DNA of 64,000 nt from Flavobacterium sp. CFS9 (GTDB lineage: Bacteria; Bacteroidota; Bacteroidia; Flavobacteriales; Flavobacteriaceae). A program made the position numbers and the translations under genes. Of this stretch, positions 8,501 through 59,996 are shown piece after piece. The notes under the pieces were generated by a model, which did not search any database, had not been told where the DNA came from, and worked only from the letters and a program-made list of their open reading frames with translations. Position 1 is the stretch's first letter. Each line of letters begins with the position of its first letter. Location: contig NZ_AP031573.1 in NCBI RefSeq assembly GCF_041154745.1, positions 310,001-374,000 on the forward strand, in the 5' to 3' direction.

Positions 8501-9635
8501 TCTGGCCAATATGTCGCATGAAATCAGGACTCCTTTGAATGGTATCATTGGTTTCACTCATTTACTGATGAATACCGGCCTTGAAGAAATTCAGGAAAAA
8601 TACATGACCACGATCAACCAGTCAGCACATTCGCTGTTGGATATCATAAACGATATTCTTGATTTCTCGAAAATCGAAGCAGGAAAACTGGAACTTTTTA
8701 TCGATTTATACGACATTAAAAAAGTACTCGGACAGGTTTTTGATCTAATCGTATACGAATCCAATCAAAAAAATCTGCAGTTAGAATTGAATGTTGCTCC
8801 CGATGTGCCCAAATACATCTGGACCGATATTGTGCGAATCAAACAAATCTTAATCAATCTGCTTTCAAACGCAGTTAAGTTTACCAACGAAGGTTCTATC
8901 AAACTCAATGTTTCTGTTTTAGAAAAAAGCGACAACAACAATTGCACTATCCGATTCTCAGTAGTGGATACCGGAATTGGAATTCTCGAAAAAAATCAGA
9001 AGAAAATCTTCAAAGCCTTTTCTCAGGAAGACAGCTCTACGACGAGAAAATTTGGAGGTACGGGATTAGGACTGACTATTTCAAATCAATTACTCGCTTT
9101 AATGGAAAGCCGTTTACAGCTGGAAAGTAAAATCGACAAAGGAAGTAATTTTTATTTTGACCTGAACTTAAAAACAAGCAATCAAAGCATTAGCGAGAAA
9201 TACAATACCGAACTTCAAAATACCGGTCTCGAACTAAATTCTGAAGACCCGATTTCAGATCAAAAAAATATTACTTTTCTGATTGTGGAAGACAATAAGG
9301 TTAACATGCTGCTTTTAAAAACCATCATCAAAAATCTGTACAGCGGCGCCTACATACACGAATGCGAAAATGGCTACGAAGCCGTAAGTCAATTTGAAAA
9401 CATCAATCCTGATTTGGTTTTTATGGATATTCAGATGCCTATTATGAACGGTTACGAAACTACAAGAGCCATCAGAAATACCATTATAGGAAAAGACATC
9501 CCAATCATTGCCGTAACAGCCGGTGCTGAAAAAGAGGAACGCAACAAATGTCTTTCTGCAGGAATGAATGACTACATCTCTAAACCCATCATGAAAGGCA
9601 GTGTCGAAGAAGCTTTGGTAAAATGGCTAAAATAA
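5583..9635 (+). CDS. Membrane hybrid sensor histidine kinase with PAS, GAF and REC domains
   Basis: This is a 1350-residue sensory kinase. About eight hydrophobic helices occupy residues 1-235. Two PAS regions follow (about 250-350 and 355-470; note DITEIRNIENDK), then two GAF domains (about 485-650 and 660-825) and a third PAS with its PAC (about 835-955). The HisKA box FLANMSHEIRTPLNGIIGF has the phospho-accepting His979. The HATPase_c domain has NLLSNAVKFTNEG, DTGIGI and GGTGLGLTIS motifs. The C-terminal receiver has acidic residues at VVEDNK-like IVEDNKVN and phospho-accepting Asp1282 in VFMDIQMP. No separate output regulator lies next to it. The signal is unknown; the GAF pair suggests small-molecule sensing in the cytoplasm. 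Confidence 0.93.
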   Translation: MVANYSLFNSLIPGVAILGNALKSIITKWYVINSDIIFYNNPKLIMLGLSMIAFLTLLVYQFFRIKTRIGYFIERKPETETVNKEYHLYILFFGIALIVIEIINEIFKIRPKSLLLVNVSIGFSMLLFYFIIGKIEFLRERVQSIFILSFFVYLFYIGYNIIYRTNDIIPIIAFLIFFYFSYSILKPIKLYWFFVGLVFTFLITTVVYQLIPVKSSIILINYCVLIFILNQVKYAVLLNNSDNFRFTNEIVHKGNSLTIATNEKNEVLFCSETITSILGYLPEEVMGAKFWKLTNETDYSENLSTITHEEDKLYIRKLRSKNGEYKYIQWKDKRFSQGLIISIGQDVTEQITVRDQYKNLIQTATDIIFEIDSDGYFTFINDFGFSILGYSENEIISQHYSNFIHENYQRNAVDFYENLELNENNFPTIEIPILKKNGKKLWISQKIIVRKNDLGQTIGFAGIARDITEIRNIENDKRKRLKKIESYNNSINKLSTTDFSQYDNLNTVIDYIIKEAAIVTKTNRVSFWKCHKDLISCKNLFSIDKQHLNDKNILDKQSYPIYFETLKSKAIINAPDVFNKLETSEFQKLYFTKNHIKSMLDVPIFLNGQLVGVVCFESTEEKRNWDNEDINYARTISDVISLAISSQMRLEAEKKLEFKSQLLSALSLCTEKFLMSKSTQEMFQETYNLIGKAAKVDHMYYYEKDFTTNTVSQKYKWSRQGIEHQITKLQRLTKDQLHEIYEAAQNKKIVNTLTRKLDDTFFKQLLIANEIKSILILPLYINDIFTGFIGFDDCTKERKWSEEEIYIFQVLANNISSALERNRNETRILESEEKFKLIANNIPGTVYLSKFDAFSTKIFLNDEILNLTGYSKSEFIENNLSFLSLIHPDDKDEVVNNQIDNLQSGMPLHNVYRIRRKTGEFIWVEEFGDVIKKGDEIEFVGGIYFDITNKKESEDAIKAKQLAEAANKSKSDFLANMSHEIRTPLNGIIGFTHLLMNTGLEEIQEKYMTTINQSAHSLLDIINDILDFSKIEAGKLELFIDLYDIKKVLGQVFDLIVYESNQKNLQLELNVAPDVPKYIWTDIVRIKQILINLLSNAVKFTNEGSIKLNVSVLEKSDNNNCTIRFSVVDTGIGILEKNQKKIFKAFSQEDSSTTRKFGGTGLGLTISNQLLALMESRLQLESKIDKGSNFYFDLNLKTSNQSISEKYNTELQNTGLELNSEDPISDQKNITFLIVEDNKVNMLLLKTIIKNLYSGAYIHECENGYEAVSQFENINPDLVFMDIQMPIMNGYETTRAIRNTIIGKDIPIIAVTAGAEKEERNKCLSAGMNDYISKPIMKGSVEEALVKWLK

Positions 9636-49680: not shown

Positions 49681-50739
49681 TTATTTATACAATTCTTCTC
49701 TAATTTTGATTATGGTTTGAACGGCCTTTTCTTCATCAGGTTTGTCAGGAAGATTTGAAGTTACGTAATGACTTTCTATTGAAGCAATTAATTGATCGGC
49801 CATTTCCAGTAAATCATCGTATTCTTTGTTTCCTGCTTTTATATCTAATAATTCATCCCGATTAGAAACTCTGATATTTAATTTTCCAGTGGACAAAATT
49901 TGCTCAGCAGTTTGTAAAAGCCTGATGGTGTGCATCATGTTTTTACTGTCATAATTCTTTCCGTGTTGTTGGTTCGTATTGTAACGATCTTCGTTACGCT
50001 TCTCAATCCAGTTCCAGTATTCAGTATATTCTTTGCAATACTTTGAATAGCCATCCTGATTACAAGACAAGTAACCCATTAGCTTTTCATCTTTTGGAAT
50101 TGATGAAAGCGAAACTTCATTGGAGGTTTCTTTCTGAATAATTCCTTTATAGCCTAAAGTTTTATTTTCGTCATAAAACATCGCAAACATTCCTTTTGAA
50201 TTAGGAAGATTTACCAAACCAATTTGTTCCTGATTCCAGTTATTCTCTTTTAAAAATGCCAATAAAGAAACTGTTTCGTATCCATTTAAAACATAACAAA
50301 AGTCCAAAAGGTTTTTCTTTTCCTTTGGCATTGGATTTACAATTTTCTTGTTTAAACCTCTCGCCTTTTTAATCTGAGTTACGGCATAACCTGCAAAAGA
50401 ATCTTTGCAAAGTTTCGACAGAAAATCTTCTATTTTCAAGTACTCCATTAAGGGATGTTTGTACAAAATACAATCTTCCGGAGAAGCCAAAATTTCAAGT
50501 ATATTGGGGTTGTTTTTAAGCAATAACTCTACAAAACGACCAATTTCGTAATACACTTCATCATTCGTTTCATTACTAACTTGCGGAATATAATCTAATC
50601 CAAAGAATCTTTCTTTAGGCAGATAATAAACCCCCTTAATATCGGTGTCAGATGTTGGAGTATTCAATCCAAAAGATTTACTCCCTGAAATGACTTCGAA
50701 AAGGATAAGGTTTTGAGATTTTAGGTTTTGGATGGTCAT
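49681..50739 (-). CDS. RlaP-type nucleotidyltransferase (RNA-repair polymerase-beta family), paralog 1
   Basis: The 352-residue protein opens with a minimal nucleotidyltransferase core: GSKSFGLNTPTSDTDIKGVY, with GS and the two metal-binding Asp. A helical second half follows (IRLLQTAEQILSTGKLNIR). It fits the DNA-polymerase-beta-superfamily group (RlaP) that recurs in RNA-repair gene clusters with RtcB; it probably adds nucleotides to RNA ends. Its start overlaps the stop of the next paralog by 4 bp (ATGA), so the two are coupled. The unique C-terminal half may hold the specificity. Confidence 0.85.
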   Translation of the reverse strand: MTIQNLKSQNLILFEVISGSKSFGLNTPTSDTDIKGVYYLPKERFFGLDYIPQVSNETNDEVYYEIGRFVELLLKNNPNILEILASPEDCILYKHPLMEYLKIEDFLSKLCKDSFAGYAVTQIKKARGLNKKIVNPMPKEKKNLLDFCYVLNGYETVSLLAFLKENNWNQEQIGLVNLPNSKGMFAMFYDENKTLGYKGIIQKETSNEVSLSSIPKDEKLMGYLSCNQDGYSKYCKEYTEYWNWIEKRNEDRYNTNQQHGKNYDSKNMMHTIRLLQTAEQILSTGKLNIRVSNRDELLDIKAGNKEYDDLLEMADQLIASIESHYVTSNLPDKPDEEKAVQTIIKIREELYK

Positions 50740-51497
50740 TTTACTAATTCTTGTTTTATAGTTATTTTAAAAAACAATTCCAGCTCTTCACTCAATCTTT
50801 TCCCACTTCCTAACTTACTCGCATTCTCTTGATTAAATTGTATCGTTTCCAATAAAAAATCGGTTATTAAAGTTTCTTTAGTGTGCAAATATTTTTCATC
50901 CTGATCGGCTTTTATATTTTGCAGCTCTATTATTTTCTCTTGTATATTCTGTGGTGCAATTGGCAATAAATCGGCAAAAGCAACGGGAGGAAAAGTATTC
51001 TTTTCTATAATCCATTTTCCTGCTAAAGCCGTTCTTAAAGCATAGAAATAACTTTTTAGTTTTACTTCTTCCATTTCGCAGACTTCCATGAAATTTTTCG
51101 TTGTTCCTAGATAGTGGTGTAAAACCGCTATTGGTGAAAAACATTCGACAGCTAGATCCTGCATTTGTTTTACAAAAGCATCATTCTGAAAATACACAAC
51201 TGGCGAAAACAACCACTCCATCAAAGCGGTATTAGATTTTGCTAATAACTTTACGGATTTGCGTAAATCCCAGCCAGAACCATCAAGATCATCTTCGGTC
51301 ATAAATTCGATCACATCGGATTTTTCCCAAAGTGACAAATAGTAATCTGGTTTGTGTTTGTATATAAAACGAATATCGTAATCGCTATCCGGAGAAGCAA
51401 ATCCCCAGGCACGACTTCCTGATTCTACTGCAAAAAGTATCTCTACATCCTTCTGCTTTTCTATTTCTTTTAATTTTTCTAGTATTTTTTCTTTCAT
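50736..51497 (-). CDS. RlaP-type nucleotidyltransferase, paralog 2
   Basis: The 253-residue protein has the same core (ESGSRAWGFASPDSDYDIRF) with GS and DxD residues and a shorter helical tail. The ATG at 51497 is used; the frame is open 12 bp further up only from a TTG. It is translated before paralog 1 with a 4-bp overlap. Two different RlaP proteins side by side suggest that they act on different ends or form a heteromer; that is inference. Confidence 0.85.
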   Translation of the reverse strand: MKEKILEKLKEIEKQKDVEILFAVESGSRAWGFASPDSDYDIRFIYKHKPDYYLSLWEKSDVIEFMTEDDLDGSGWDLRKSVKLLAKSNTALMEWLFSPVVYFQNDAFVKQMQDLAVECFSPIAVLHHYLGTTKNFMEVCEMEEVKLKSYFYALRTALAGKWIIEKNTFPPVAFADLLPIAPQNIQEKIIELQNIKADQDEKYLHTKETLITDFLLETIQFNQENASKLGSGKRLSEELELFFKITIKQELVK

Positions 51498-51588
51498 GAT
51501 TGTTTTCAAATATTAAGTAAACAGGAAAGCTTTAAATCAAGTAATAACACATGATTTAAAAGCCAACAGATAATCTTTAGAATTAAAC

Positions 51589-52848: not shown

Positions 52849-54270
52849 CTAATCCTCACGACTTCCATCATCCGCCATTCTCACCAGTTTCGGTGTAAAT
52901 TTAGCTACAACATCCACTAAATCCTGTTGTGCTTCCATGACCTGATGGATATCTTTATAAGCCATTGGCGCTTCGTCCAGACCTGCTCCGATAAGCGTAA
53001 CGCCATGATCGCTCAGGATCGATTTCATCTCGGTTGGCGTGATGTTTTTGATGGCCTGAGTTCGGCTCATTTGTCTTCCTGCTCCATGCGAAGCCGAATT
53101 AATAGCATTCTCCTCGCCTTTTCCTCTCACCAAAAACCCCGGTGCGGTCATACTTCCCGGAATGATTCCCATCACACCTTTTCCGGCTGGAGTTGCTCCT
53201 TTTCTATGCACGATCACCTCTTCTCCGTTCCAGATTTCTTTCCAGGCAAAATTATGATGGTTTTCAACTTTGGCTAAAATCGTTGCACCTAAAGCGCGTT
53301 CCATTTTGTTATGGATAACTTCATGGCATGCCGAAGCATAATCTCCCGCCAAATTCATCGCCAGCCAGTATTCCTGTCCCAATTGTGTGTTCATATCCAG
53401 ATACGCTAAGTTTTTAGCCACTTCCGGAAGTTTACAAACGTCTTTTGCAATTTTAGTATAATGTCCAGCGATTGTAGCTCCCATTCCACGTGAACCGGAA
53501 TGCGTTAACAAAGCGACATATTTCCCTTTCGGAATGTTCAAAACCGCATCGTCCTGAGCAAACTCCATGATTCCGAATTCCACAAAGTGATTCCCACCAC
53601 CCGAAGATCCTAATTGCGACCAGGCTTTATCCTTCAAATTCTTTACAAACGGATTCATATTGAACGTTTCGTTCTCCAAAACCGCATGCTCTGATTTGTA
53701 ATGACCGTGAAATCCGTGTCCCGCTCCAAAAATAGAATTCGCAATTAATTCTTTTTTGAATTTGGCTTCGTTTTCAAAGTAAAAAGCTTCCGGAATATCA
53801 TAAACCGACAACGCCATTCTACACCCGATATCAACACCAACACCATACGGGATAATGGCATTTTTGGTAGCCAGAACTCCGCCAATCGGTAATCCGTAAC
53901 CCTGATGTGCGTCGGGCATTAACGCTCCGGCAACGGTAACCGGTAATTTCATGGCTACTTCCATTTGTTTTCTGGCACCGTCTTCGATATGATCCAATCC
54001 GTAAGCCGAATACACATTCGGATTCTGATTTAAAGCAATAAAATCTTCCGGCTTTTCATTGGATTTTTCGATCAAAGCAACAGCCAGTTTGCTAAAGGTT
54101 TTATCGTCTATATAATTCTCCGGAGTTTCTAAGACGTTTTTGTAATGAGCAATCATTTCGTCTCTTGTAAATCCGTTTCTTTTGCTGTTTATTTTTAAGG
54201 CAATCCCGATTATTTTTCCTTCAGGGAATCCTAATTCTAATATTTCTGTACCGTTTATTTGTGTTTTCAT
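52849..54270 (-). CDS. rtcB: RNA ligase RtcB
   Basis: RtcB joins RNA 2',3'-cyclic phosphate (or 3'-phosphate) and 5'-OH ends using GTP and Mn2+, and is the tRNA-splicing ligase of archaea and animals. The 473-residue protein has GVGVDIGCRMAL with Mn ligands Asp147 and Cys150, SGGGNHFVEFG, LTHSGSRGMG, and SASHGAGR with the guanylate-accepting His395. The ATG at 54270 gives the normal start; the frame runs upstream only through spacer sequence. It sits in a cluster with RlaP genes, a HEPN-like gene and a split tRNA-like RNA, which makes a stress-linked repair role likely. Confidence 0.95.
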   Translation of the reverse strand: MKTQINGTEILELGFPEGKIIGIALKINSKRNGFTRDEMIAHYKNVLETPENYIDDKTFSKLAVALIEKSNEKPEDFIALNQNPNVYSAYGLDHIEDGARKQMEVAMKLPVTVAGALMPDAHQGYGLPIGGVLATKNAIIPYGVGVDIGCRMALSVYDIPEAFYFENEAKFKKELIANSIFGAGHGFHGHYKSEHAVLENETFNMNPFVKNLKDKAWSQLGSSGGGNHFVEFGIMEFAQDDAVLNIPKGKYVALLTHSGSRGMGATIAGHYTKIAKDVCKLPEVAKNLAYLDMNTQLGQEYWLAMNLAGDYASACHEVIHNKMERALGATILAKVENHHNFAWKEIWNGEEVIVHRKGATPAGKGVMGIIPGSMTAPGFLVRGKGEENAINSASHGAGRQMSRTQAIKNITPTEMKSILSDHGVTLIGAGLDEAPMAYKDIHQVMEAQQDLVDVVAKFTPKLVRMADDGSRED

Positions 54271-54325
54271 TGTTTTTCTTTTTAAGGGACAAAGGCCCGG
54301 AGGTTCATAGGTGCAAAGGTTATGC

Positions 54326-54345
54326 ACTGCTGCGCAGTTATTTTA
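54326..54345 (+). repeat. ACTGCGCAGTTATTTT motif, copy 3
   Basis: ACTGCTGCGCAGTTATTTT overlaps the stop codon of the HEPN-like gene. It is one of five copies of this motif, all plus-oriented; here the first part also forms ACTGC...GCAGT. Confidence 0.5.
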
Positions 54346-54903
54346 AAATCTCCCACGATTCTCTTTTTGCAGTAATAAAATTTGATGAATTCTTCTAATT
54401 TCATCTACTATTGGCTTTATTTTGTATTCTACATTGAGCATTTTAAAAACTTGCTTATCATAAAAATATGCTCTAAAAAATGTTCTATTATCATCTACAT
54501 AACTAAGTGGTCCAACGTATTTTTGCATCACTTTATATCTCTCGTTTTTTTGTAAAAAATCATCTAGTTTCTCATCAAAATGTTCCATAAGATTTCGCAT
54601 ATCTCTATTCTTTAAAATACTTGAATCACTTACATGATAAACCTCACGTAGCTTTTCTCCTCGTCTTTTATGATATACATCTTTGCTTGGAGGCCAAAAA
54701 AAACGAGAAATTCCTCCTACATTAAGAATAATATTTTGAAGTAAATCTAGAATCGCATTGTCATTTTTGCAATCATGATTTCCGTTTTTCCAAAATTTAT
54801 TTAATGACTCAACATCATTCAAAATTGAACGTGTTTTATTAAATAAAGATTCAACGTAGAAAGCTTCACTAAAAGGATGGATTTCAAATTCTAAATTTCT
54901 CAT
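54343..54903 (-). CDS. Possible HEPN-domain protein next to rtcB
   Basis: The 186-residue, mostly helical protein carries RNLMEH at residues 103-108, which fits the RNxxxH motif of HEPN ribonucleases, and polar residues fill the rest (HDCKNDNAILDLLQNII). No overall family is recognised. HEPN proteins often cleave tRNA or other RNA in defence and stress systems. The ATG at 54903 starts MRNLEFEIHP; an alternative start lies 33 bp upstream. It lies 72 bp before rtcB on the same strand, so a cleaver next to a ligase is plausible. Its codon use is more AT-rich than rtcB. Confidence 0.5.
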   Translation of the reverse strand: MRNLEFEIHPFSEAFYVESLFNKTRSILNDVESLNKFWKNGNHDCKNDNAILDLLQNIILNVGGISRFFWPPSKDVYHKRRGEKLREVYHVSDSSILKNRDMRNLMEHFDEKLDDFLQKNERYKVMQKYVGPLSYVDDNRTFFRAYFYDKQVFKMLNVEYKIKPIVDEIRRIHQILLLQKENRGRF

Positions 54904-54937
54904 AACTATTAATTTATTTTTCAAAGATTCAAACAAT

Positions 54938-54967
54938 ACTGCGCAGTTATTTTGCGTAGTTTTTTTA
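54938..54967 (+). terminator. TGCGCA palindrome copy 4, terminator-like on plus strand
   Basis: ACTGCGCA and TTGCGTAGT pair over GTTATT and are followed by seven T on the plus strand. It directly follows the start side of the HEPN-like gene, where no plus-strand gene ends, so its T-run may be chance and the palindrome may have another role. Confidence 0.45.
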
Positions 54968-55244: not shown

Positions 55245-57485
55245 TTAATCAACCAACAACTGCGTCACAACCGCAGGATTCATTGCCCATTGAGCTGTAT
55301 AAACCTCATCAGCATTTTCATCTTCGGTGATTGTTAATCCCTGAGCTTCCGCTTTAAGCTGTAACAAGCTTCCGATATTCAATTTGCTGTTCAATTTTGA
55401 CAATAGCGCCTGAACTCCTTTAAAATCCAAACCACCCACAACCTGACCTCCGAAAGTCATTTCCAACCAAACGATTTCTCTTTTGGCTACATCCAAAACT
55501 CCAAAGACCAAACCTTTCGCCACATTCTGCGTCACACTAACCTGGTGATCTACACATGACGGATCGTAGGCAACACCTGTTCTTTCCGAGATTTTCATCG
55601 GGTATTTACTGTTCATCCAACCTACTATCAAATTTGGTGTGATGCTTCCGTTGCTATACGCATTGCAGGTAAAAGTCACAAATTTAGCTTTGGCTTTTGC
55701 CAATTCGTCGATGTTGATGTTGATATATTCGGCAGTTCCAATTTTATTCGGAATACTTCTGATATCACCACTATGCTGGCAACCGGTTGTCGTCAATCGA
55801 CTGAAAGAGCAAATATCAGAACGATCTTCGTAAGCGATATGACAGCTTAAATCCATATCCAGATGTTGTGCCGGTAGATCTATACCCCACTGCATAAACA
55901 ATCGCACTTCGTTACCTTCAACCGGAAAACGGGTTCCCATTAAAGCAACTGGTAAATCCTGAACAGTATCACTTCGATCTCCTATCGAAACCGGAATGTT
56001 AAACAATTGCGGATCGATATAGATGGTTTTATTGGTGTTTTTAACCGCCGCGAATCTTTTTCTCATTGCCAAAAGACACAAATCCTCAATCTGACTTTTC
56101 ATCTCCTCTAACTGCAATTCATCATATAAATTCAACAATGCATTTGGATTCACTCTTTTATTGGTTCCTCCTAAAGGCTTTACACTTCTTTGTATGTTTT
56201 TATCAAAATAATTGGATGCATACATGTTCAGCGTAAAGATCAGTCTGGCCGGAACTTTATCGATAATTTCAGAAAAATGAGCAATCGTTTCGTCTGCTCC
56301 AAACCAAAGCATATTCGAAAATAAAGAACGGGCAAACAACCCCGGACGTTGCTTTAACAACGCAAATGTTTTATCGGCATCAAACTTTAACCTTAACGAA
56401 TTTACTTTTCCCTGCCAAACGTCATATACCTGATTGTAAAATACATCCATTAAAAAATTCAATTTCTCGAATCCTTTTCTTTTGCTGTATTCTGCCAAAC
56501 GCAAGGCACGGATAAAACGAACCCACATTCCTCTTTTTGGATGCATGGTTTCGCACATAGCCTCAACTTCCATATCCATATTATTCAACCAGTTGGCCAC
56601 CATCAAACATTCTTTTCGGGAATATTTCAATTTCAACTCTTTTTGAGACGCTATTCTCGCCTGAACGCTTGTATCCAGAGCACTGTAAAAATGCTGTCCA
56701 TTTTTAGCAGCTCTTTTAACAATCGTTTTTGGCTCGATAATCTGAAGCATTCCTGTATTCTTAAACCATAAATATCTTAAAATATCCGTTGGAGTTTTCA
56801 AAAATTGCGAAGCCTCGTCTTCTTTACCGTTTTCAATCAAAAGATCGATCACCAGCATTAAAGTTTCCTTCATTGCTACTTCTGTTTTTGTTAAAGGCAA
56901 GTACTGCATCACCATTTTTAAGCTGTCTATCTGAGTAGCGTCTAAAGCAGTTTTGGATTGCAATAACGAAATATAGAACTCATTTAAATCTTTTTCAGAC
57001 CACAATTCAAGCACTTTCAACTTGCTTCCTTGTCCTACTTTTTCGATTTTCCCAAATTCAAACGGAGTTCCACAGAATGGACAACCGTTGTATCTTTCTA
57101 ACGGAAAAGTATTATCTAGGATAATATGTCCGCATTGCAATGTAGTTCCGTTTTTAGTTTTGAAAACATTTCCGAAATATGTAATAATATGATCCAAAAC
57201 AGATTCTCCTGTTGGAACATTCCATTCTTTCACCAATGGTGTCCAGTTTTTATCGGTTCCTAAAACTTCTCTCAAAACTTCTAAAACCTCAACTTTATAA
57301 GTCGGATTCACATTGTTTAAAGCATGAAGCAAGGATTCTGAAAATGTAAATCCCAATTTTGAAACATTGGCTAACAAAACGGATGTTGTTCCTGATAAAT
57401 TTGTAACGTCATTCACAATCATTTCTGACGGAATGAAAATAGCGTTCTGACGTAAACTGATTTTTAATAATGCTTTTGTTTTCAT
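55245..57485 (-). CDS. RING-like zinc protein with TerD-like region (MXAN_6230/SCO0854-like)
   Basis: The 746-residue protein resembles the MXAN_6230/SCO0854 family. A zinc-type motif, QCGHII...NGCPFCGTPF, has ligands Cys118, His120, Cys135 and Cys138. Helical repeats fill about 160-480 (LMVIDLLIENGKEDEASQFL, ALLNLYDELQLEEMKSQIED). A beta-rich part (about 525-660; DLPAQHLDMDLSCHIAYEDR, GTAEYININIDELAKAKAKF) recalls TerD proteins. Its role is not known; this kind of protein has been noted with RNA-repair and stress genes. Its start lies directly behind the tRNA-like array, which would be in or just before its leader. Confidence 0.65.
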   Translation of the reverse strand: MKTKALLKISLRQNAIFIPSEMIVNDVTNLSGTTSVLLANVSKLGFTFSESLLHALNNVNPTYKVEVLEVLREVLGTDKNWTPLVKEWNVPTGESVLDHIITYFGNVFKTKNGTTLQCGHIILDNTFPLERYNGCPFCGTPFEFGKIEKVGQGSKLKVLELWSEKDLNEFYISLLQSKTALDATQIDSLKMVMQYLPLTKTEVAMKETLMLVIDLLIENGKEDEASQFLKTPTDILRYLWFKNTGMLQIIEPKTIVKRAAKNGQHFYSALDTSVQARIASQKELKLKYSRKECLMVANWLNNMDMEVEAMCETMHPKRGMWVRFIRALRLAEYSKRKGFEKLNFLMDVFYNQVYDVWQGKVNSLRLKFDADKTFALLKQRPGLFARSLFSNMLWFGADETIAHFSEIIDKVPARLIFTLNMYASNYFDKNIQRSVKPLGGTNKRVNPNALLNLYDELQLEEMKSQIEDLCLLAMRKRFAAVKNTNKTIYIDPQLFNIPVSIGDRSDTVQDLPVALMGTRFPVEGNEVRLFMQWGIDLPAQHLDMDLSCHIAYEDRSDICSFSRLTTTGCQHSGDIRSIPNKIGTAEYININIDELAKAKAKFVTFTCNAYSNGSITPNLIVGWMNSKYPMKISERTGVAYDPSCVDHQVSVTQNVAKGLVFGVLDVAKREIVWLEMTFGGQVVGGLDFKGVQALLSKLNSKLNIGSLLQLKAEAQGLTITEDENADEVYTAQWAMNPAVVTQLLVD

Positions 57486-57656
57486 TTTTTTTAATTTTTA
57501 AAATTTAGATAATGGTGCTTCTGATTCTACCTAAAAGATTTGAAGTAAGAAGCACTTGACCTGAAATTGGAGGATAATGGACTAACTAAGCTAAAATGGA
57601 GCGGGCGACCGCGAAAGAAGTAAGTTAATCTTGACCCTCGTTTATTAATGATAATT

Positions 57657-57710
57657 TTAAAACTTGCCGGATTCGAACCGGAAATGCCGATATTCTGAAG
57701 TAAGTTTTAA
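57657..57710 (-). ncRNA. T-arm minihelix closed by an 8-bp stem
   Basis: On minus, TTAAAACT (57710-57703) pairs with AGTTTTAA (57664-57657). Between them lies TCCGG-TTCGAAT-CCGGC, a T-arm with a canonical T-loop (one weak pair at its base), giving an acceptor/T-arm-like minihelix. D- and anticodon arms are absent. The outer stem is the N8/N8' stem of the array, so it serves as the acceptor helix. Confidence 0.65.
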
Positions 57711-57724
57711 TTGATCATCAATAG

Positions 57725-57842
57725 AGAAGCAGATGGGATTCGAACCCACGACCCGGACATTAAAAGTGTACGAAGTAAGTTTTGATTGACCTTTTACCGA
57801 TAATTTCAAAACTACCTGCTCTAACCGTTGAGCTACTGCCTC
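57725..57842 (-). tRNA. tRNA-Lys(UUU)-like gene split by a 45-nt insertion at position 26/27
   Basis: On minus, acceptor GAGGCAG (57842-57836) pairs with CTGCTTC (57732-57726, one G-U) with discriminator T at 57725. U8-A9, the D-arm GCTC-AACGGTTA-GAGC and A26 (57817) follow. After 45 nt (57816-57772), the anticodon arm GTACA-CTTTTAA-TGTCC (one mismatch; anticodon TTT at 57764-57762), variable loop GGGTC and T-arm GTGGG-TTCGAAT-CCCAT complete the fold. Without the insertion it is exactly 73 nt. The insertion itself holds an 8-bp hairpin, ATTATC, GGTCAA and TACTTC. A U73 and G1-C72 are unlike normal tRNA-Lys, so it may be a decoy rather than a translating tRNA. Confidence 0.75.
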
Positions 57843-57985
57843 TATTATGATTGAAAAATAAAAAGGTAATGGTGTAAGTGTGTACGTTGGAAAGTTTTCT
57901 GAAGTAACTCAAACTTGACCTGTTTTATTCTTTATTCTATTTCTATGAACGTTTGTTTTTATTTCTGAACAAAGATTTCAAAACC

Positions 57986-58008
57986 ACTACGCAATTATTT
58001 TGCGCAGT
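57986..58008 (+). repeat. ACTRCGCAATTATTTTGCGCAGT palindrome, copy 5
   Basis: ACTACGCAA (57986-57994) and TTGCGCAGT (58000-58008) form a 9-bp stem with one mismatch around TTATT, next to an A-run. On the minus strand it comes before the tRNA-like array and could be an upstream terminator or a regulator site. Confidence 0.6.
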
Positions 58009-58045
58009 AAAAAAAGAATTTTAAATTTGAGTAAATATTAATATT

Positions 58046-58241: not shown

Positions 58242-58856
58242 ATGGATTTAAAGGAAATTTATGCTGAATTACTCTCCGATATTGACTTTCCAGCAAATGA
58301 AATTCAGCAAAACTGGATGGATTTAGAAAAGGCCTATTCCAAAAAATCAAGGCATTATCACAATCTCACTCATTTAAAACAAATGATCGAGAGCTTTCAG
58401 GTCTATCGCGATAAACTTGAAAATCCGAATGAAGTATTATTTTCAATTTTTTATCATGATTATATTTATTCGGCTTCCAAAAAAGACAATGAACTTAAAA
58501 GTGCCGAGTTTGCTTTATCGATTCTTCCCGAAAATAGCCGCCTAAATAAGCAATTCATTTTTGATGCGATCTGTGCGACACAACAACATTTGCATAATAA
58601 CGATGAAGACATTAACTGGTTAATCGATTTTAATTTGAAGATTCTTGCTAAAGATTGGGAAGATTATAAAATCTATTTGGAACAAATTAGAAAAGAGTAC
58701 CGTATTTACCCTGATTTTCTCTACAAACCCGGACGTGCCAAAGCGCTGAAACATTTTCTGGAAAACGAGTTTATTTTTCAAACTAAGGAATTCAGGGATT
58801 TGTATGAGGAAAAAGCAAGATTAAATATTGAAAAAGAGATTTCATTATTAACGTAA
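58242..58856 (+). CDS. HD-type metal-dependent phosphohydrolase
   Basis: The 204-residue protein has the HD-like motifs of predicted metal-dependent phosphohydrolases (in databases sometimes misnamed as an NMDA receptor subunit): RHYHNLTHL near residue 37, then FYHDYIYSASKKDNE with the HD pair, and a later conserved YKPGRAKALKHFL. It probably cleaves a phosphoester or cyclic phosphate; near RtcB, processing of RNA 2',3'-cyclic ends would fit, but that is inference. It is divergent from the zinc-motif gene and precedes the WYL regulator by 102 bp. Confidence 0.8.
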   Translation: MDLKEIYAELLSDIDFPANEIQQNWMDLEKAYSKKSRHYHNLTHLKQMIESFQVYRDKLENPNEVLFSIFYHDYIYSASKKDNELKSAEFALSILPENSRLNKQFIFDAICATQQHLHNNDEDINWLIDFNLKILAKDWEDYKIYLEQIRKEYRIYPDFLYKPGRAKALKHFLENEFIFQTKEFRDLYEEKARLNIEKEISLLT

Positions 58857-58857
58857 A

Positions 58858-58948
58858 TACGCGTGAGGGATTGAGGCGGTATCCTTTTGTGAAGAGAAAC
58901 GGAACAAAAGATATAGCCGAAAGCCCGACCCGGAGGGGCACGCCCAAA
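58858..58948 (+). ncRNA. Structured RNA-like element before the WYL gene
   Basis: GCGTG near the start pairs with CACGC near the end. GGC-GTAT-CTTTTGT pairs with ACAAAAG-ATAT-GCC across a GAAGAGAAACGGA loop, and GCCC with GGGGC. The element ends 10 bp before the WYL start codon. Similar sequence (AAAGATATAGCCGAAAGCCCG) is familiar to me from many Flavobacterium spacers, so it may be a repeat family rather than a WYL-specific leader. Confidence 0.55.
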
Positions 58949-58958
58949 AAAACAAACC

Positions 58959-59996
58959 ATGTCACAAAACAAAAATGCCTTAATTCGGTACAAAACGATA
59001 GACAAATGCCTTCAAAATAAATACCGGCAATGGACTTTAGACGACTTAATCGAAGAATGCTCTGATGCTTTGTTTGAATACGAAGGCCGTGCTAACCCCA
59101 TCAGCAAACGAACCATTCAGATGGATATTCAGCTCATGCGAAGTGAGAAACTGGGGTACAATGCTCCAATTGTGGTATATGATAAAAAGTATTATAAATA
59201 CGAAGACGACGAATTTACGATAACCGATATCCCTTTAACCGAAACAGACATGAATGTGCTCACCGAAACTGTTTCGATGTTGAAGCAGTTTAAAGATTTC
59301 TCTCTTTTTAATGATGTATCGGACATTCTACAGCGTTTGGAGGATAAAATCTACGCCGAAAAATCGCATACCAAACCTGTTATCTATCTGGACAAAAATG
59401 AAAAGCTTAAAGGACTTCATTATCTGGACGAGATTTATCAGGCCATTATCAAAAAGGTAGTTTTGGTTATTACCTATAAATCGTTTAAATCTCAGGAAGA
59501 AACCAAATTTCACTTCCACCCTTTTATTTTAAAGGAATTCAATAACCGATGGTTTCTGGTGGGAAAGAAAAAAGGTTCACAGCCAATTACCAATTTGGCG
59601 CTTGACAGGATCATAGCCATAGATTACGATTTCAACATTCCCTATTTAGAAGAAAACTTTGATGCAGAGCTCTTTTATAAAAACGTAATTGGGGTAACCG
59701 TTAATACAGGTTTACAACCCAAAAAGATCGAACTTTGGATAGACGCAACCAACGCACCTTATGTGTTAACCAAACCTCTGCATCACACGCAGCGGCTCAT
59801 TAAAGAAAATGATGACAAAAGCATCATCGTTCATTTATTTATTTCTCCAAATTACGAAATGGAACGTATTCTTTTAGGGTTTGGTGACGGCATCGAAATT
59901 ATTAAACCCGAATACCTGAGAAATAGAGTAAAAACTATACTTCAAAAAGCAATTTCACGATATGATCCTGAAAATGCCATTGAATTAAAGCCATAA
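58959..59996 (+). CDS. WYL-domain transcriptional regulator
   Basis: The 345-residue protein has a helical DNA-binding N-terminus (IRYKTIDKCLQNKYRQWTLD) and a WYL domain (about 155-235; VVLVITYKSF, FHFHPFILKEFNNRWFLVGK) followed by the WCX-type C-terminal region. WYL domains sense nucleic-acid or nucleotide ligands in several defence and DNA-repair regulators. Beside rtcB and rlaP genes it is the obvious candidate to sense RNA ends and control the island. Confidence 0.88.
   Translation: MSQNKNALIRYKTIDKCLQNKYRQWTLDDLIEECSDALFEYEGRANPISKRTIQMDIQLMRSEKLGYNAPIVVYDKKYYKYEDDEFTITDIPLTETDMNVLTETVSMLKQFKDFSLFNDVSDILQRLEDKIYAEKSHTKPVIYLDKNEKLKGLHYLDEIYQAIIKKVVLVITYKSFKSQEETKFHFHPFILKEFNNRWFLVGKKKGSQPITNLALDRIIAIDYDFNIPYLEENFDAELFYKNVIGVTVNTGLQPKKIELWIDATNAPYVLTKPLHHTQRLIKENDDKSIIVHLFISPNYEMERILLGFGDGIEIIKPEYLRNRVKTILQKAISRYDPENAIELKP

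Follow-up and report, generated by a model that had tools for sequence, protein, structure and literature searches.

A tRNA interrupted in its anticodon arm in Flavobacterium is probably not split and carries a Y RNA-like stem, beside a gene whose product may resemble Ro60

According to the excerpts of two papers that describe them (PMC11472068, PMC8394870), bacterial Y RNAs are circularly permuted mimics of tRNA, and their stem holds the protein Rsr. The origin of Y RNAs and the use of their mimicry in RNA repair are open questions, and these are addressed by a locus in Flavobacterium sp. CFS9. The window, that is, the whole stretch of 64,000 nucleotides (nt) that was analyzed, covers positions 310,001 to 374,000 of contig NZ_AP031573.1, and all coordinates below are positions within it. 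At 57725..57842 of the minus strand lies a tRNA-Lys-like body whose anticodon arm is interrupted by 45 nt, which an earlier note, made from the sequence alone, had suggested to be a bacterial split tRNA, spliced or used as a decoy or sensor. We propose that this apparent split tRNA is probably not split, that its insert is similar to the stem by which a Y RNA binds its protein, and that the protein of 746 amino acids (aa) encoded behind it may resemble Ro60. With a probability of about 0.82, we favor a Y-RNA-like array with one member of tRNA topology, a divergent Ro-like protein as its likely partner, and a use as scaffold or bait for tRNA repair.

The tRNA-like body is well preserved. It matches the Rfam tRNA model at 43.7 bits (gathering score 29; E 5.5e-6 for the window) and, as the earlier note had it, measures 73 nt without the insert (118 - 45). 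The acceptor stem (GAGGCAG/CTGCTTC), D arm and T arm are intact, the acceptor 5' strand, D arm and nucleotide 26 lying at 57817..57842 and the remainder of the anticodon arm (ACA-CTTTTAA-TGTCC), the variable loop, the T arm and the acceptor 3' strand at 57726..57769, both on the minus strand. The claimed placement of the break between nucleotides 26 and 27 is not unique: it gives GTACA/TGTCC with four of five pairs, whereas an insert after nucleotide 28 (57770-57814) gives GGACA-CTTTTAA-TGTCC with five of five. The unconstrained fold of the 118-nt RNA reaches -32.1 kcal/mol (z -2.94; equaled by 1 shuffle in 200) and is predicted to hold the acceptor, D and T arms, an insert stem of 8 base pairs (bp) and an ACA/TGT hairpin, the flanks of this hairpin being paired otherwise and its two lower GG/CC pairs absent. 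ARAGORN called no tRNA at 57725-57842, and of the 71 Rfam tRNA matches in the genome, the interrupted element included, only one scores lower than it. The 49 tRNAs that ARAGORN named in short stretches around the Rfam matches include two ordinary tRNA-Lys(UUU) genes, so that the genome has at least that many. A scan of the window at Rfam gathering scores returned two tRNAs and Flavo-1 and nothing else; even at a lax threshold there was, tRNA aside, no convincing match, and a known Rfam element other than tRNA was therefore rejected for the array.

Motif reading and pairing analysis identify the insert (57770..57814, minus strand) as a permuted copy of a structured module, and the 8-bp hairpin and array motif ascribed to it earlier are both present. 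From high to low coordinates it consists of the 3' strand of the 8-bp stem (57806-57813), AUUAUC (57799-57804), a cap loop, GGUCAA (57786-57791), the 5' strand of the stem (57778-57785) and UACUUC (57772-57777). It is one of five copies in an array; the other four are free-standing, that is, outside tRNAs, and all lie on the minus strand. Module model R1, which was built from other species, scores these four at 41 to 67 bits: module 1, of GTTACTTC type, at 57864..57921 (61.6 bits, E 1.8e-15); module 3, whose loop contains a T-arm mimic (CCGG-TTCGAAT-CCGG), at 57649..57717 (40.9 bits, E 1.9e-9); module 4 at 57572..57637 (41.5 bits, E 1.3e-9); and module 5 at 57507..57562 (67.4 bits, E 3.7e-17). 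The permuted copy within the tRNA was not detected by R1. In free-standing modules the order is GGUCAA, 8-bp stem, UACUUC, variable loop, stem and NAUUAYC, with a bulged C in the outer helix, and some carry T-arm mimics. In the tRNA the module is reversed, so that a short loop caps the outer end of the stem and the UACUUC end opens into the anticodon arm.

Pairing within these modules is conserved. For modules picked by their flanking motifs and not by pairing, it amounts to 92.9% in 74 distinct free-standing copies, compared with 57.2% with swapped partners (maximum 62.7%), and to 90.4% in 26 distinct copies within tRNAs, compared with 80.4% (maximum 84.6%); the count excludes 6 of 65 in-tRNA modules and the 38 free-standing ones in which 75 nt of sequence held no 3' motif. 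The stem covaries, with a score of 0.564 in an alignment of 28 modules preselected for at least seven of eight pairs, against 0.168 when shuffled (0 of 500 as high) and at most 0.136 when the alignment was slid. The loci read also show that the first module of an array (e.g., 57864-57921 of the window) usually has G (GTTACTTC) and that later modules mostly have C, and that the first-module loop often carries CUUUCCA or a variant. At loci L080, L081, L083 and L100 a second module, in some cases with its own T-arm mimic, is nested in the cap loop of the first module of the interrupted tRNA; the stretch from D to T arm is 176, 169 and 143 nt long in L080, L081 and L100, and that of L083 was cut short by the script.

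The divided arm recurs far beyond the window. We fetched 61 loci with relatives of the 746-aa gene, 60 of which have upstream sequence, and found 68 occurrences of the tRNA 5' half in the window and these 60 regions, 65 of them with a matching 3' half. Such elements are present in 56 of the 60 relatives, from Flavobacterium to Chitinophaga and Saprospiraceae; the divergent locus L091 has a 5' half without a 3' half. Removal of the insert yields a perfect 5-bp stem with U33 and a purine at 37 in 52 of the 65 tRNA-like elements of the 61 upstream regions (mean 0.185, maximum 2 in 200 runs with shuffled inserts), most of the 65 coming from one genus and including one ordinary tRNA (L083), one element without a module (L095) and one nested element for which a wrong 3' half was taken by the script (L083). 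When distinct flank pairs are counted, 26 of 39 give a perfect arm, against a swapped-partner mean of 9.95 (maximum 16). In 44 of the 52 perfect cases, mostly of one genus, the arm fits best if the break leaves 2 nt of the 5' strand, and in the other 8 if it leaves 3 to 5 nt; the spacing from TACTTC to the 3' part varies from 0 to 3 nt. The anticodon varies as well (UUU in 33 of the 52, UCU in 10, others in 9): it is UUU in the window and UCU in L042, whose 746-aa protein is 95% identical.

The divided arm is also present at TROVE loci. TROVE genes are found in 27 of 395 sampled Bacteroidota genomes, at least one of which (G816) also has module matches. The YrlA model (RF02553) matches 14 of 18 TROVE stretches scanned, at E 2e-5 to 0.05 and always below the gathering score, and 16 distinct permuted tRNA domains occur in 15 of 30 TROVE stretches; the Y RNA matches lie outside the gene, often behind it. 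TACTTC stands within 75 nt before the T arm in 14 of the 16 domains, by eye after a stem of the array type, and a perfect divided anticodon arm, for example GGCGA-CTTTTAA-TCGCC or CGTCG-CTTTTAA-CGACG, is present in 8 of them (mean 0.02 when shuffled; mean 1.42 and maximum 4 when partners are swapped). These Y RNAs share both the motif and the divided arm with the array. Their order is Y stem, anticodon hairpin, T arm, capped acceptor, D arm and Y stem, and read from the acceptor this is the order of the window element, which represents the un-permuted form. The window module, moreover, has the 8-bp covarying stem and the TACTTC that mark the basal stem in the Y RNAs of this phylum. In the permuted form the stem runs out into the 5' and 3' ends of the RNA, and thus a divided anticodon arm does not imply splicing; because that arm is found in the Y RNAs of TROVE loci, we no longer place splicing first, and splicing, although possible, is not needed to explain it. 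R1 gave three matches at E≤5 in 23 TROVE loci (best 0.0077) and detected no large Y RNA, and YrlA gave none at E≤5 in 57480-58020 of the window and none at E≤1 in L053, L083, L089 and L077. The best R1 match at a TROVE locus (L200 326-364, E 0.0077) is a short stem that has the UUACUUC motif of the array but no tRNA domain.

The array precedes a gene at 55245..57485 (minus strand), whose start codon follows module 5 by 21 nt. Its 746-aa product has a weak RING-like zinc motif (residues 117-139), a helical middle (150-480) and a domain with the TerD fold (about 519-690). With the helical middle alone as query, the best fold-search matches are Ro60-like; with the whole protein, the TerD domain fills the top and Ro60 is not among the best 50 matches listed. 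At the level of sequence profiles there is no link between this family and TROVE (hhalign 0.2%), Pfam TROVE (PF05731) is not among the families matched by 24 members at E≤1, and no TROVE gene was found in the organism's own genome; TROVE membership by sequence profile is therefore rejected. The protein matches the MXAN_6230/SCO0854 family RING-domain protein model (NF041916; E 2.8e-35, best stretch 355-681) at 121.8 bits against a cut-off of 600, which makes it a relative and not a member.

Gene and array are strictly associated. The module motif stands upstream on the coding strand in all 60 relatives with upstream sequence, in one to seven copies each. The exact module pattern, a strict one, occurs at least twice in 34 of 249 Flavobacterium genomes, all of which carry a gene of the 746-aa type (a 35th gene match has 28% identity over 104 residues). 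Fifteen of the 249 lack the gene and have a single pattern match, and a reversed-pattern control matches single genomes at least as often. The four exact matches in the organism's own genome are all at this array, and among the 395 Bacteroidota genomes 29 have a match, three or more being confined to genomes of the same genus. The protein family, with 4362 homologues at E≤0.001 of 7996 scored, extends to phages and other bacteria. One module occurs on a Prevotella replicon (E 3.6e-7), and a Hymenobacter plasmid combines a module (E 1.2e-13) with an interrupted tRNA. In Rhodococcus phage Weasels2 the family gene is directly followed by three TACTTC-bearing stems of 8 perfect bp, one of them with a YrlA-like tRNA domain (E 0.22, below gathering); a fourth, weak module match (E 0.49) and, about 3 kilobases (kb) on, RtcB are also present. 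The stem finder gave six stray perfect stems in ten other loci read, so that single matches mean little. Rhodobacter phage RcXuper has a YrlA match ahead of its family gene (E 1.6e-5, below gathering). No array was seen in the 800 nt ahead of the RING/TerD gene in Variovorax, Niallia, Vibrio, Deinococcus and a Salicola phage, and these and Streptomyces gave no module match below E 1 and no YrlA match at E≤0.5, the latter also being absent from the fecal phage record L231. An rtcR gene adjoins the Variovorax copy, and an RNA ligase lies near the Vibrio copy. In two phage records there are tmRNA-like matches near the RING/TerD gene (L230 999-1415, L231 726-1108), including strong ones to alphaproteobacterial and permuted tmRNA models.

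The array and rtcB share a palindrome. One copy (TGCGCA-N7-TGCGTA, 57988..58006, strandless) lies at the likely array promoter, and a TTTG, the form of the -7 box in Bacteroidetes, begins 33 nt from the start of the palindrome, at about 57970-57973; the other (54940..54958, strandless) precedes the 197-aa gene (54343..54936, minus strand; no Pfam family) and rtcB (52849..54327, minus strand, start probably at 54270; PF01139, E 5e-82). Of 61 regions, 49 have TRCGCA-N7-TGCGYA in the 260 nt that precede the first module, always accompanied by TTTG 32-33 nt from the start of the palindrome. The 750 nt that precede rtcB contain the palindrome in 27 of the 31 loci in which rtcB was found (about 4 expected), among them three with a distant RtcB (27-30% identity). 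The palindrome may be an operator, with a WYL-domain regulator (58959..59996, plus strand) as a candidate reader; a homologue of this regulator lies near the array in 35 of 44 loci (L042-L082, L092, L097, L098). That the locus is an RNA-repair island, as the earlier note had claimed, holds well: besides rtcB, about 3.4 kb downstream of the interrupted tRNA, the minus strand encodes the RNA-repair nucleotidyltransferase RlaP (50736..51509; PF10127, E 4e-75) and a second RlaP-like nucleotidyltransferase (49681..50739; PF10127, E 5e-24). RtcB is encoded somewhere in all 34 array genomes compared with 16 of 34 picked others, a difference that genome size may confound, and was not found in 29 of the 60 relatives within a stretch of usually 6 kb on either side. 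Among loci with no rtcB nearby, L054 encodes Hen1 along with two ligases, a T4-type RNA ligase and one of Pnkp type; RadC and a DNA methylase are encoded in L083, and the scanned open reading frames of L049 and L052 have no family match. In L054 the same palindrome stands at 9565 and 10650, ahead of the RNA ligase and the Hen1 gene; pairs about 1.1 kb apart also occur in L056, L062 and L069.

Four other explanations deserve consideration. Decay of a tRNA gene that gained repeats by chance would account for the ARAGORN miss, the low tRNA score and the lone 5' half of L091, but 56 of the 60 relatives retain the element, and the module shows compensatory changes; we reject decay on this conservation, which already contradicts it, and regard it as extremely improbable. 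A second candidate is splicing, in which an endonuclease would remove the insert as an intron and RtcB would join the halves into a working tRNA-Lys, a bacterial protein-spliced tRNA. The perfect arms (52 of 65), their common break point (k = 2 in 44 of 52), the RtcB of all 34 array genomes, the palindrome common to rtcB and array and the lack of a whole divided arm in the minimum-energy fold of the uncut RNA all speak for it, as would a match to a tRNA intron endonuclease (PF01974), very weak at E 0.18, in 1 of 24 relatives of the 746-aa protein, which we take for chance. Nevertheless, the Y RNAs of TROVE loci have the divided arm with nothing to excise, the break point shifts between lineages and the anticodon between close relatives, ordinary tRNA-Lys(UUU) genes are present, four of the five modules in the window lie outside tRNAs, RtcB is missing from the surveyed stretch in nearly half of the relatives, and no splicing endonuclease was matched among the nine neighboring window proteins scanned, two of which have no family. 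The earlier proposal of a spliced split tRNA thus becomes very unlikely.

Could the modules instead be cis-acting leader sites through which the 746-aa protein controls its own synthesis, the tRNA merely cutting the leader? Their position ahead of the gene on the coding strand in every relative, with the last one close to the start codon, would fit; the stems of phage Weasels2 lie behind the gene, however, the Y RNA matches of TROVE loci lie outside it, often behind, and the tRNA mimicry in the loops would be left unexplained, so that we consider this rather unlikely. A decoy or sensor, as the earlier note also suggested, is possible though somewhat doubtful: anticodon hairpins and T- and D-arm mimics on display would be cut or bound by anticodon nucleases, and the broken RNA would signal damage. 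The displayed parts differ and the anticodons are varied, the repair enzymes stand behind the same palindrome, and 4 of 60 loci have at least four ordinary tRNA genes upstream. RtcR, according to the excerpt available of a study in Salmonella, senses tRNA halves (PMC7790460); the same excerpt reports that YrlA fragments were not seen when tRNAs were cut, and raises competitive inhibition (PMC7790460). Cleavage of the array RNA is hypothetical, and such a role would be compatible with, and not exclusive of, a Y-RNA-like array with a Ro-like partner.

We therefore return to the Y-RNA-like array as the best explanation. The 45-nt insert would be the basal, protein-binding stem of a Y RNA, branching off the anticodon arm of a tRNA body, within a five-module array in the leader of a RING-like, Ro-like, TerD gene whose product would be the likely binding partner. 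The tRNA-type ends would probably be cut by the end-processing enzymes of the cell, giving an RNA of about 118 nt that retains the stem. Bound, the array may serve as scaffold or bait for tRNA repair, made together with RtcB under one palindromic site; in at least one relative, Hen1 and two ligases, of T4 and Pnkp type, would take the place of RtcB. Module structure and covariation, the strict tie to the gene, the shared palindrome, and the motif and divided arm common to the Y RNAs of TROVE loci are results of computation; binding, end processing, regulation and role are proposals. Burroughs and Aravind in 2016 reportedly described Band-7/SPFH RNA-repair systems in which a scaffold protein and a tRNA-like RNA stand beside a ligase, as is proposed here. 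More tentatively, a second Ro/Y-RNA system may exist that is independent of TROVE and whose single ring protein binds several Y stems in an array, each showing a different piece of tRNA and one having true tRNA topology; such a system would be the missing link in a descent of Y RNAs from tRNAs by capping of the acceptor stem and opening of the anticodon stem, and the whole might form a modular sensor of tRNA damage or a scaffold that feeds interchangeable ligases. An RNA that is not permuted, ends like a tRNA and has a Y-type stem on its anticodon arm shows how tRNAs and Y RNAs could be converted into each other. Where arrays and the genes of RtcB or different RNA ligases share a palindrome, such RNAs are connected with RNA repair, in bacteria that are easily cultured, among them a laboratory strain of Flavobacterium johnsoniae that has the array. 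The case is also a warning that splicing should not be taken for granted when a "split tRNA" is found near rtcB.

Some further features of these loci were observed. A Flavo-1 small RNA match lies near the array (58855-58934, 42.8 bits), and a stronger one (72.8 bits) adjoins a TROVE gene (L213 2435-2512). A 204-aa protein without a Pfam match (58242-58856) has a homologue near the array in 41 of the 44 loci surveyed for the WYL regulator. Upstream of the interrupted-tRNA array, 4 to 11 ordinary tRNA genes are clustered in L083 (4077-5323), L077 (4633-5116), L081 (214-819) and L096 (4380-4842), as in phage tRNA arrays.

On our preferred reading, the array is a variant of Ro/Y-RNA systems of which we found no description in the literature searched, where the matches listed contain nothing on a Y RNA of tRNA topology, an array of Y RNAs or a Ro-like RING/TerD protein. 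With the tRNA introns of archaea and animals that are joined by RtcB, it shares a tRNA interrupted near the anticodon and RtcB in the cell; unlike them, its insert is a conserved stem module found outside tRNAs as well, no endonuclease was identified, and its arrangement recurs in Y RNAs that cannot be spliced. YrlA and Rsr/Ro60 (rsr-yrlBA-rtcBA operons) come closer. The tRNA-like domain of YrlA is circularly permuted, according to the excerpt of PMC11472068, whereas the window element keeps ordinary tRNA order and ends at the acceptor stem; its Y-type stem, closed by a cap, projects from the anticodon arm; the modules stand several together in an array; and the candidate partner is a RING-like/Ro-like/TerD protein with no TROVE match, beside an RNA with no Rfam YrlA match. 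Both, however, have a tRNA-like domain with a divided anticodon arm, a neighboring Ro-like protein and RNA-repair genes, and the window has a basal stem of the UACUUC type, as in the Y RNAs of its phylum.
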